NCBI RefSeq assembly: GCF_000317515.1
Contig: NC_019738.1
Span: 3,312,001 to 3,376,000, forward strand
Length of the DNA stretch: 64,000 bases
Source of the DNA: Allocoleopsis franciscana PCC 7113
GTDB taxonomy: Bacteria > Cyanobacteriota > Cyanobacteriia > Cyanobacteriales > Coleofasciculaceae
Direction: 5' to 3'
Of the stretch, positions 35,191 through 43,231 are shown in pieces; the stretch's first letter is position 1; the number at the start of each line of letters is the position of its first letter. Both the position numbers and the translations under genes were made by a program. The notes beneath the pieces are model-generated. The model did not search any database. It was not told the origin of the DNA and was given only the letters and a program-made list of their open reading frames with translations.

Positions 35191-35269
35191 TAAATTTTTA
35201 GACTTTCAATTCGTAGTTCCTCTACCGTATGGTCAATTTAACTCTCGACCGCTATAACCTTATTTCCTA

Positions 35270-37101
<1,832 letters not shown>

Positions 37102-37824
37102 ATGCCTGCCAAAGATTTCCTCAATTCAGTGCAAAAAAAGCAGTTACAGCAAACTTTACGAGACAGTGAGCAACCGCATTTAAGAGAAGGATGCTTGATT
37201 CTGCTGTTAATAAATGATGGAAAGACGGCTAGAGAAATTACTGACTTACTTGGTTGTTCCTTCCGCACCGTAGCTTATTGGCAATTCAATGGTTTTCCAG
37301 AGAATTTAGAGTCCCTACCAGACGAACAAGAACTGGAGTACCGACCAGATCAGCAAGAACCGGAGTACCTAGCACATCAAAGAGAACGAAGGAACTCTCA
37401 CAAAGCCCTAGAAGACTTTATCCCGTTATCAGACATAAAAGTTTTAGAAGTCAGTTTTGCTCTAATCCAACCTCAGGCGACAGAGTTTGCCTCGAAGTTC
37501 TATAAGAACCTGTTTACTGACTATCCCCAGCTTCAGCCCTTATTTGCCTACACTCACATAGAGGTTCAAGAGAAGAAGTTAATCACGGCTTTGGTGTTGG
37601 TGATCAATAATCTACGTAAACTCACTTACTTGAAGAACATACTAAAAGACTTGGGAACCAGACATGTAAGGTATGGCACTATTCAGGAACATTATCCGAT
37701 GGTGGGTGGAACGCTCCTTAAAACTCTTGAGTCTTTTTTAGGAAAGGAATGGACACCAGAGGTTAAGCGGGCATGGACGCATGGATATAAAGCTATCGCT
37801 AACCTGATGCAAGAAGAGCACTAG
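37102..37824 (+). CDS. Helix-turn-helix-globin fusion protein
   Basis: A 240-residue chimera. Residues about 1-72 match the N-terminal DNA-binding domain of IS630-type transposases: MPAKDFLNSVQKKQLQ, REGCLILLLINDGKTAREIT and LLGCSFRTVAYW. The linker holds a 9-residue unit repeated twice (PDEQELEYR, PDQQEPEYL) plus a degenerate third. Residues about 112-236 are a globin of the flavohaemoglobin single-domain type: FYKNLF with Y134 at B10, PLF with F148 at CD1, VQEKK with Q156 at E7, TRHVRYG with H188 at F8, then HYPMVGGTLLKTLE. All haem-pocket residues are kept and there is no reductase domain. It converges with a LOV-GAF histidine kinase, 69 bases away. A haem-based DNA-binding sensor is the simplest inference. 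Confidence 0.85.
   Translation: MPAKDFLNSVQKKQLQQTLRDSEQPHLREGCLILLLINDGKTAREITDLLGCSFRTVAYWQFNGFPENLESLPDEQELEYRPDQQEPEYLAHQRERRNSHKALEDFIPLSDIKVLEVSFALIQPQATEFASKFYKNLFTDYPQLQPLFAYTHIEVQEKKLITALVLVINNLRKLTYLKNILKDLGTRHVRYGTIQEHYPMVGGTLLKTLESFLGKEWTPEVKRAWTHGYKAIANLMQEEH
37318..37371 (+). repeat. 27-base tandem duplication in the HTH-globin linker
   Basis: Units 37318-37344 and 37345-37371 differ at five positions and encode PDEQELEYR and PDQQEPEYL; a third degenerate unit (AHQRERRNS) follows. It sits exactly between the DNA-binding part and the globin. Confidence 0.75.
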
Positions 37825-37893
37825 ATAGAGACGCTCTATAGGAAGTGATTAACGGGAATAGATGTCTCTATTGATAACAACTCTATAAAACCG

Positions 37894-40683
37894 TCACCCT
37901 TCACCCGAAGGCAATGTCGTGGTTTGTAGAGTTTTAATCTTAGAGGGAGCAAGGGGAATTTGAACAATAAACTCTGTTCCTTCTCCAGGAACCGAGAGGC
38001 ATTCCAGTTGTCCCCCATGTTTTTCGACAATAATTTGATAGCTAATTGATAAACCTAAACCCGTCCCCTCTCCCACCGGTTTCGTGGTGAAAAATGGGTC
38101 AAAAATTCGTTTTTTAACGTCTTTAGGAATGCCAGAACCATTGTCGGCAATCCGAATAATAACATTTTGTGGCGTCCCAATTTCATCCGAATTAGAAGTT
38201 TGGGAGGGGGAACAGTCTGCAACCTCAGTAGAAATTTTAATGATTTTAGTTTTGGGCTGGCTGGGAGTTGTGGCTTGGGTTGTGTGGTGTTCTGTAGTAA
38301 CGACTGGAACCGATTTTTCTAAAGCATCGATCGCATTATTCAAAAGATTCATAAAAACTTGATTGAGCTGCCCTGGATAACACTCTACAAATGGCAGATT
38401 ACCGTACTCCTTCACTAGCTGAATATTACCCGCTTCCGGCTTTAAGCGATGTTGCAAAATTAATAGGGTATTCTCAATTCCCTCATGAATATCTACGAGT
38501 TTACGCTCCGCTTCATCCACGCGGGAGAAATTTTTTAAACTCAAGACAATCTGACGAATGCGATATGCCCCAATTTCCATTGATTTCAGCAATTTTGGGA
38601 AATCCTTTTTGAGGAAATCAAAATCAATCACCTCTATCTGCTTGGCAATGGCGGGTACCGGTTGAGGATAGTTTTCGGTATAAAGCTCAACCAATTCCAG
38701 CAAATCCTGAGCATACATTTCTGCATGGGTAATATTGCCAGAGATAAACGTCACTGGATTATTAATTTCATGAGCAACACCCGCGACTAACTGCCCCAAT
38801 CCCGACATTTTTTCGGTTTGAATTAGTTGGAGTTGGGCTTGTTTGAGGTCGTTAAGGGCTTTTTTCAGCTCAGTCGCTTGCGTTTTCAGAGCTTGTTTTG
38901 ATCGTCGTAATGCGGCTTCCGCTGCTTTTCGCTCGGCTAATTCTTCGGCTAACTGCTTGAAGAGTGCGGCTTGCTGAATGGCTACGCTCAACTGTACACT
39001 AATCTGTCTGAGTAATTCAATCGTCGAGTCCTGCCAATCCCGTGTTTTAGAGCATTGATGAGCAATCAATAACCCCCAAAGTTTATCCCCTTGTAGGATA
39101 GGAACCACGAGGTTGGCACGTACCTGAAATCGCTCTAATAATTGAATATGACAGGGACTTAAGTCTGTATTGTAGATATCATTAATCGCTCGAATCCGTC
39201 CTTTTTGGTAGAGATGAGCTTTGCTTTCTTGAAAACAGGTATCCTGAATATTGATGGCTGAAGCTGGCGTCCATTCTTCACCCACGGACTCCACCACAAT
39301 TGTGCCACTCCAATCGAGGTTAAAGCGACAAATCAAAGTGCGATCGCAAGCTAAAAATTGTCGCACTTCTTCCACAGCCGTGTTCAGGACTTCATCTAGA
39401 TTCAACGACTGACGGATGCGCTGATTAATCCCGCTGACTAACCGCTCTCTTTCGGCTTGCTGTCGGAGTCTCGTTTCCGTTTGCTTTTGCTCGGTAATGT
39501 CCTGAAACGACCAAATTCTACCGTAAGATTCACCTTCGGGCGATCGAGCCGGAGCCGAATAACAATCGAAAACCCGCCCGTTTGTCAGATGAATTTCCTC
39601 ACGGCTGATTAGGGAGGGATTCTCTTCCAAATATTCCATCTGGCTAAAAACTCTTTGTGGCTCTTGGATTAAGGGCAGCAACCAGTTAAAGATGATTTTG
39701 TGCTCTCCCAATTGCCGCATCCCCTCAGGGATTTGCCACATTTCACAAAAACGCTGATTGTAGCTTAATGTTGCTCCTGTTTCATCCGTTACCAGAACAC
39801 CATTAGGATCGGATTCTTGTTGCGCCTTCAATAAGGCATTACTGCGTTGCAAAGCCTTTTGAGCTTGCTTGCTTGCTTGAGCTTGCCGATAGGCTTCGCT
39901 AATGTCACGGGCAAACGCACAGTTATACTCCTGATTGTTAAATCTTAAATAGTTGAATGTGACTTCTACGGGAAAGACTTGACCATCTTTAGCGCGATGC
40001 TGAGTTTCAATTGAGAAAGAGCCACCTTCCCTTACCTGTTGCCAATGTGACTGCCAGACGGAGAGGGAAAAATTGGGGTCAATGTCCTGGATACTTAACC
40101 TCAGCAGTTCTTCACGGGAATATTTCAGCGCTTTACTTGCAGTCTCGTTAACATAGAATAATGTCCCATCCGGTCGAATATAGAAGACAGCATCGGCAGC
40201 GCGATCAATCGAAAACTGCATTAATTGTTGGGTTTCTTCCGCCTGCTTGCGCTCAGTGATATCGGTTTGAACGCCAATAAAGTGCGTTACCTTGCCTGAG
40301 CTATCTCTTACTGGCGAAATCGTTAGATCGTTCCAGAACAGTGTGCCATCTTTGCGATAATTTTTTAAGACAACTCTGACTTCTTGCCCTGTCCGGATCG
40401 ATTGGCGAATTTGCTCAACAGCAATTGGATCAGTATCATGGCCTTGCAAAAACCGACAATTCCGTCCTATCACTTCCTCTTGGGAATAGCCTGTGATTTT
40501 CAGGAAAGCCGGATTGCAATATATTATAGGATTGTCGAAACAGCGAGCATCACTAATCACGATGCCACAGCTTGTGGCAGCTAGCGCACGGTCATATACC
40601 CTCTTGTTGCCTATATCCACTGGTTCTGATTGATTGGCGTCTAAGACCCTACAACTAGCTTTCTTGGCGACCATGGCTTTCAT
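37894..40683 (-). CDS. LOV-PAS-PAS-GAF sensor histidine kinase
   Basis: A 929-residue cytoplasmic kinase without membrane spans. Domain 1 (about 27-145) is a LOV domain: GRNCRFLQG with the flavin-adduct cysteine C76, NYRKDG with N108, FWN with N118, and GVQTDIT with Q139, the complete flavin set. PAS domains follow at about 155-265 and 285-400. Residues about 415-575 are a GAF domain with DTCF (C483, a DXCF motif) and SPCHIQLLERF (C511-H512), the cysteine pattern of bilin-binding cyanobacteriochromes, then LWGLLIAHQC. A coiled coil leads to the phosphoacceptor H638 in VAGVAHEINNP and a full HATPase (N-, G1-, G2-boxes; EGTGLGLSISY). No receiver domain or response regulator is adjacent. Confidence 0.9.
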   Translation of the reverse strand: MKAMVAKKASCRVLDANQSEPVDIGNKRVYDRALAATSCGIVISDARCFDNPIIYCNPAFLKITGYSQEEVIGRNCRFLQGHDTDPIAVEQIRQSIRTGQEVRVVLKNYRKDGTLFWNDLTISPVRDSSGKVTHFIGVQTDITERKQAEETQQLMQFSIDRAADAVFYIRPDGTLFYVNETASKALKYSREELLRLSIQDIDPNFSLSVWQSHWQQVREGGSFSIETQHRAKDGQVFPVEVTFNYLRFNNQEYNCAFARDISEAYRQAQASKQAQKALQRSNALLKAQQESDPNGVLVTDETGATLSYNQRFCEMWQIPEGMRQLGEHKIIFNWLLPLIQEPQRVFSQMEYLEENPSLISREEIHLTNGRVFDCYSAPARSPEGESYGRIWSFQDITEQKQTETRLRQQAERERLVSGINQRIRQSLNLDEVLNTAVEEVRQFLACDRTLICRFNLDWSGTIVVESVGEEWTPASAINIQDTCFQESKAHLYQKGRIRAINDIYNTDLSPCHIQLLERFQVRANLVVPILQGDKLWGLLIAHQCSKTRDWQDSTIELLRQISVQLSVAIQQAALFKQLAEELAERKAAEAALRRSKQALKTQATELKKALNDLKQAQLQLIQTEKMSGLGQLVAGVAHEINNPVTFISGNITHAEMYAQDLLELVELYTENYPQPVPAIAKQIEVIDFDFLKKDFPKLLKSMEIGAYRIRQIVLSLKNFSRVDEAERKLVDIHEGIENTLLILQHRLKPEAGNIQLVKEYGNLPFVECYPGQLNQVFMNLLNNAIDALEKSVPVVTTEHHTTQATTPSQPKTKIIKISTEVADCSPSQTSNSDEIGTPQNVIIRIADNGSGIPKDVKKRIFDPFFTTKPVGEGTGLGLSISYQIIVEKHGGQLECLSVPGEGTEFIVQIPLAPSKIKTLQTTTLPSGEG

Positions 40684-42647: not shown

Positions 42648-43231
42648 GTAGGAAAGAGGGGGAATAAGCTGTTACGCATTTAATTTGCCTATTGAGGCTG
42701 CGGGGGCGCTGGGGAGAGGATTTGAGCTGAGCATTTTTATGCTGTGTTTAGAATGTACAAGTTTAATGCACTGTAGCTTAGTAATATTTCTCCTCGACCC
42801 TAACCGATTGGGTTGCCCATGAAGACCTAAATCCATCAGTGATGCTAGCTGATGAAAGACAGCAATTAACAGCTTGATGTTGACCTTTGAGCTATTAGGA
42901 AAAAATATCACGGGCACGCAGAAATTCACACTCACTAACAGCAGAACTCTACTCTGCTGGATAAAACTTAACATTTTAAGTCGTTTGGTCACTTCCGTTA
43001 GGAAAAGATACAAAGGTGAAAATCCCCTCGCCTTGATGGCTGGGGGTGTCAACACTCTTTGAGCCGGGGTGTTTACTATGTCTTCTGGCAGAAGTTAGTT
43101 GCCCAAAAATTAGAGATGATTTGTAAAGATAGTAACCAAATCCCTTCAAAATTGTTACCCAGTTTTGAAATAAAGCTCATCGAAAGATAACAAGACAAAT
43201 TCAGCAAATGTAGTTTTCGTAGGAGGCCAAC
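42648..43231. other. Intergenic, no gene supported
   Basis: 584 bases. The longest frame (42672-43055, minus strand, 127 codons) has no ribosome-binding site and no recognised content, and an overlapping plus-strand frame is equally unsupported. The segment just before 43232 contains the AGGAGG ribosome-binding site of the lipoprotein gene. Confidence 0.45.

Follow-up and report, generated by a model that had tools for sequence, protein, structure and literature searches.

Known chimeric globins have a flavin reductase, a signalling domain or NOS as their partner. In globin-coupled sensors (GCS) the globin belongs to the sensor family and occupies the N-terminal position (PMC1457004). In SETMAR, a fusion of the Hsmar1 transposase with a SET methyltransferase, a dimer formed by the first helix-turn-helix (HTH1) binds the terminal repeats of the protein's own transposon, and seven of the nine major-groove contacts are made by HTH2 (PMC9062482). 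The F-box A2 proteins of Caenorhabditis have captured a single mariner HTH, which is under selection, showed no binding of transposon repeats and may mediate protein contacts (PMC12062965). The co-option of mobile-element HTH regulators in bacteria has been reviewed without mention of IS630 (PMC8987985). Among the open papers searched, no report was found of a fusion between a haem globin and an HTH, be it from a transposase or of another kind.

The open reading frame (ORF) described here lies at positions 37102-37824 on the forward strand of a 64,000-nucleotide stretch of cyanobacterial DNA (hereafter the window), and in it the N-terminus of an IS630 transposase is joined in frame to a complete 3/3 globin. 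A preliminary description had read it in this way and proposed a domesticated DNA-binding head turned into a gas-responsive regulator.

Architecture of the Fusion Protein

The ORF is open from ATG to TAG without an internal stop (240 aa), both of its halves are matched by profiles, and a syntenic copy exists in a second species of the genus (G388; L060 8864-9559); the fusion is thus real as first seen. The syntenic copy also rules out a frameshift or assembly error joining two frames.

Residues 1-74 (37102-37323, forward strand) correspond to the N-terminus of an IS630 transposase with its HTH1 at about residues 28-64, as indicated by profile matches, alignment and predicted helices. The head is matched by the NCBIfam model transpos_IS630 (E 3.6e-05) and, below the threshold, by Pfam HTH_23 at residues 32-60 (E 1.1e-4), and residues 1-77 are 61% identical to IS630-type N-termini (E about 1e-26 to 1e-28). 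Using an alignment that included full-length cyanobacterial IS630 transposases (372-379 aa, DDE present; L072, L075, L077, L084) and orfA-type copies, homology was traced over residues 1-74 and again over residues 93-108 (37378-37425, forward strand), where RERRNxHKxLEDxI of the fusion corresponds to RExGNYRKAxxxYI of IS630. The 18 residues between the two blocks (residues 75-92; 37324-37377, forward strand) are two inserted units of a 27-bp (9-aa) tandem repeat, of which G388 has one. The IS630 HTH core GCSxRTVAYW is retained, with the recognition-helix motif preserved letter for letter. The IS630 origin of the head is therefore upheld by protein homology and by a transposon end upstream (see below), while its extent, initially given as residues 1-72, has to be revised, since the homology reaches residue 108.

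Only globin follows after residue 108. Of the parts that characterize an IS630 transposase the N-terminal HTH1 region is present, whereas HTH2 (winged HTH_33; IS630 residues about 106-140) and the DDE domain are absent, and Pfam finds neither; judged by its domains, the fusion protein is no longer an IS630 transposase, and the catalytic part is gone as previously stated, whereas the loss of HTH2 had been overlooked. Head and linker lack a net positive charge, and IS630 heads are similar. A search of viral contigs with the head gave no match.

The closest heads belong to solo 148-aa proteins without DDE (L063 3120-3566, reverse strand; L065; L066 2149-2595). These are stand-alone double-HTH proteins resembling IS630 orfA, with the common ending RILRKHKVRLPxSR and no DDE downstream; L063 adjoins a NusA-like gene and L066 an ilvA-like gene. 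They are possibly domesticated solo IS630 regulators. Derivation of the head from such a solo HTH protein instead of a transposon is countered by the presence of an IS630 left end ahead of the fusion's ATG.

Residues 110-240 (37429-37824, forward strand) form a single-domain flavohaemoglobin-type globin according to Pfam, PDB, alignment and fold matches. The Pfam Globin model (PF00042) matches residues 132-234 (E 1.3e-15), the NCBIfam flavohaemoprotein model matches the fusion protein at 9.1e-22, and the best PDB matches in phmmer are the globin domain of HGbRL (3wfw, E 9.5e-25) and Hell's Gate globin I (HGbI; 3s1i, E 5e-23), with flavohaemoglobins likewise among the closest PDB relatives. The haem-pocket residues Tyr134 (B10; 37501-37503), Phe148 (CD1; 37543-37545), Gln156 (E7; 37567-37569) and His188 (F8, the proximal haem ligand; 37663-37665) are kept, as had been noted, and are unchanged in all of the 11-12 aligned relatives. 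With homology across the entire globin domain and B10 Tyr, CD1 Phe, E7 Gln and F8 His in place, the globin is classified by its sequence as a member of the single-domain flavohaemoglobin-type (F-family) globins.

Globin homology starts at approximately residue 110, corresponding to codon 3 of stand-alone globins (MSLxVEVLExSF), and the alignment indicates that the globin's own start codon is lost in the fusion. Between fusion codons 33 and 139 neither ATG nor GTG nor TTG occurs in frame, so that with standard starts the globin can be made only as part of the fusion.

In a tree of globins the fused globins grouped with globins of Scytonema/Tolypothrix (98/91) and apart from the stand-alone globins of their own family, Coleofasciculaceae. 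These nearest relatives (L131-L133, L138) bear a hydrophobic C-terminal tail and are apparently membrane-anchored; the tail is missing from the fusion. The host genome has no second copy of the fused globin, only a 34% globin ending a cyclase-like protein. Cyanobacterial ORFs with 2-5 tandem globin domains are common (L143, L144; G400:C164, 788 aa; G510:C121, 1050 aa; G583, G622, G651).

An AlphaFold2 model of the fusion was built with 12 sequences. Most of the globin had a pLDDT above 90 and head helices 9-63 one of about 85, with the HTH helices predicted at residues 25-38, 43-50 and 54-63, followed by a disordered stretch (69-86) and a helix (88-104) leading to the globin. Model residues 107-238 matched HGbI (3s1i_A) with Z 22.5 and an rmsd of 1.1 over 131 residues; the list of fold matches was filled by globins and thus covered only the globin part. 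The structure prediction of the whole chain, which had been suggested earlier, thus gave well-modelled globin and HTH helices but not the relative placement of the domains (pTM 0.58 for the whole chain).

Transposon Remnant and Origin of the Fusion

A position weight matrix (PWM) was built from 17 cyanobacterial IS630 left ends and scanned on both strands of the window (~128,000 positions). It matched at 37039-37069, on the same strand as the fusion and 63 bp upstream of its ATG, with 16.9 bits, the second best score in the window; it was surpassed only by a MITE at 42665 (30.7), and unrelated sites reached 10.4 at most. The matched stretch, a remnant of an IS630 left terminal end, contains a -10-like TATAAAA. 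In the multi-copy IS630s of G269, G351 and G304 the left end (TAAGCT...) is situated 55-65 bp before the ATG. No IS630 right end was detected downstream of the globin up to 38400, so that of the left and right terminal inverted repeats of an IS630 element only the left one is represented. From the left end upstream, the homology up to residue 108 and the missing right end we infer that in the common ancestor of the two species of the genus an IS630 integrated 5' of a globin gene, and that a deletion then removed HTH2, DDE and the right end and joined transposase codon ~90 (fusion codon ~108) to globin codon ~3. What is left of the element is its left end, its start codon and about the first 90 codons.

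Promoter scans and Rfam gave nothing usable at the locus. A search for an empty site via the flanking genes yielded no clean one, the DUF3050 gene and the histidine kinase gene not being adjacent outside the genus. The 60 bp just upstream of the IS630 end (36960-37019) are 97% identical in G388, with surroundings at 80-88%; this segment is single copy and has no Rfam match.

The MITE at 42665-42780 is a 116-bp IS630-type element with the inverted ends TAAGCTGTTACGCA... and TAAGCTACAGTGCA..., which has 36 matches in the host genome and none in G388. A second MITE family of ~100 bp comprises near-identical copies (L126-L130; G000:C1:6886314, 1114747, 2357075, 664871, 3535895) with the common 23-bp end TAAGCTGTTACGCATTTAATTTG, and their near-identity suggests recent mobility. 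Dozens of IS630-type ends are thus present in the host genome as MITEs, and potential binding sites for the fusion therefore exist. No close IS630 of the head's subgroup was found in this genome, where the DDE_3 elements belong to another subgroup.

Distribution and Selection

The architecture was searched for in overlapping samples of 20 family, 389 order and 388 class genomes, in which the genus was represented by one further genome, G388. Among about 700 cyanobacterial genomes searched, two have the fusion, both of one genus; the family, order and class samples yielded no further fusion, and neither did 80 globin loci from GTDB genomes. Longer matches in G419, G277, G651 and G443 were only apparent, the globin there following stops or a further globin. 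The proposed check for the same architecture in other cyanobacteria was accordingly positive for one related genome, G388, and for no other.

In G388 the fusion has 231 aa, is about 87-90% identical and stands at the same place, with a DUF3050 gene upstream and a histidine kinase gene downstream in both genomes; the sole indel between the two fusions is one in-frame 9-residue (27-bp) repeat unit. G388 has about 3.8 kb of additional NACHT-like/repeat genes (L060 3289-5750) between an AAA ATPase gene and the DUF3050 gene, which the window lacks.

Selection was estimated as dN/dS by NG86, with every estimate resting on a single sequence pair (window vs. G388). The whole fusion gave 0.33 (19 synonymous and 24 nonsynonymous differences; p 0.0009), the head 0.18 (Fisher p 0.004), the lowest of the three parts, the globin 0.39 (p 0.036 for dN<dS) and the linker 0.56 (not significant). 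DNA identity to G388 was 94.6% for the head and 94.5% for the globin vs. 83.6% for the upstream intergenic DNA (p 3e-5 and 5e-7), with an overall p of 4e-10 for the fusion against intergenic DNA. Both halves of the fusion are kept under purifying selection, in agreement with the selection earlier read from the intact haem pocket. The IS630 left end is 77% identical between the species and scores poorly by PWM in G388; it is diverging like ordinary intergenic DNA, evidence against a conserved operator at this site. Synonymous divergence is 0.14 for the fusion and 0.11 for DUF3050 vs. 0.33 for the neighbouring genes on either side (block 35231-37900 vs. L060). This block may have been exchanged between the two lineages by recombination or transfer, and its shared history may therefore be short.

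Putative Function

As a regulator, the protein would bind haem and a diatomic gas (O2 or NO) through its globin like the single-domain relatives; HTH1 would mediate homodimerisation, as in mariner transposases, and bring the protein to DNA, possibly to IS630-type terminal repeats or AT-rich DNA; and the haem ligand or redox state would alter the helical linker and hence the DNA-bound state. Haem binding is likely because the ligands are conserved, and dimerisation through HTH1 is likely by analogy. DNA binding is uncertain on two counts: without HTH2, specific binding is less to be expected, and the singly captured mariner HTH of the F-box proteins did not bind repeats. Neither a target regulated by the fusion nor an informative gene neighbourhood was found.

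We regard a gas-responsive, DNA-bound one-component regulator as a serious possibility that falls somewhat short of an even chance. It is consistent with a syntenic fusion in G388 differing in length only by the in-frame indel, with the low dN/dS of the head and its DNA identity well above that of intergenic DNA, with the retained HTH core, the left end upstream and the invariant haem ligands, and with a model in which well-predicted HTH and globin are joined by helix 88-104. MITE ends offer potential sites, and SETMAR provides a precedent for an HTH1-formed dimer on terminal repeats (PMC9062482). However, HTH1 alone is left, while HTH2 gives most base contacts in SETMAR, and the captured HTH of Caenorhabditis showed no binding of transposon repeats (PMC12062965); moreover, a conserved operator is not evident, given the divergence of the left end and the absence of the 116-bp MITE family from G388, head and linker have no net positive charge, and at a pTM of 0.58 the relative placement of the domains is not predicted. 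About equally likely is an ordinary globin that has kept its stand-alone role in O2 binding or NO dioxygenation; here the head would bring along a promoter, a start codon and a module for dimerisation or protein binding, and would not bind DNA specifically. The fusion removed the globin's own start and an IS630 left end lies upstream; the solitary HTH1 and the F-box precedent of an HTH that may act by protein contacts point in the same direction, as do the full conservation of the globin and its stand-alone or membrane-tailed closest relatives. Against the ordinary globin stand the letter-for-letter retention of the recognition-helix motif and the constraint on the head, which is the strongest of the three parts and more than a mere start donor needs.

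A more specific form of the regulator, a bacterial counterpart of SETMAR in which a gas-responsive dimer acts on the IS630-type ends of MITEs and on its own transposon-derived promoter, is unlikely; if true, it would be a gas-sensing regulon made from transposon debris. Still less probable is a repressor of transposition, in which the head would occupy IS630/MITE ends or poison transposase dimers and the globin would be a passenger or stabiliser. The genome does contain IS630-type MITEs, some of them near-identical and so recent, but it retains no close IS630 of the head's subgroup, G388 keeps the fusion without the 116-bp MITE family, and the globin is conserved. Of similarly low probability, and disfavoured, is a recent relic on its way to decay that happens to be unbroken: its restriction to one genus and the possibly short shared history of the block would suit it, but neutrality would give several times more than the 24 nonsynonymous differences seen beside 19 synonymous ones, and the only indel is in frame.

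Comparison with Known Systems

As a gene, the fusion fits the kind of host-transposase fusion known from animals: a transposase DNA-binding part is in frame with a host domain and is kept by selection. Like SETMAR and the F-box A2 proteins, it is a lineage-restricted capture of a Tc1/mariner-type HTH by a host gene; these differ in being eukaryotic and without a haem sensor, and SETMAR keeps HTH1, HTH2 and the catalytic domain. Cyanobacterial IS630 transposases share residues 1-108 and the left end with the fusion, which lacks their HTH2, DDE and right end. In this bacterial case the origin is readable from the left end, the junction, the lost start codon and the sister species, and a small protein thereby offers a direct test of how new regulators come about.

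HGbI of Methylacidiphilum (3s1i), Vitreoscilla haemoglobin and Campylobacter Cgb resemble the fusion in sequence, 3/3 fold and haem pocket but have no N-terminal HTH head. HGbRL (3wfw; globin and Roadblock/LC7) and cyanobacterial NOS with a globin domain (PMC6104048) place the same globin family in chimeras, with different partners that are not transposon-derived. The globin-coupled sensors combine a globin with an output domain, as in the working idea for the fusion, whose globin is in contrast of the flavohaemoglobin family and C-terminal, which sets it outside the GCS. MabR of the PucR family (PMC11617747) likewise unites a globin fold and an HTH in one regulator; its globin is a non-haem 2/2 globin, a GGDEF-like domain lies between the two, and its HTH is unrelated.
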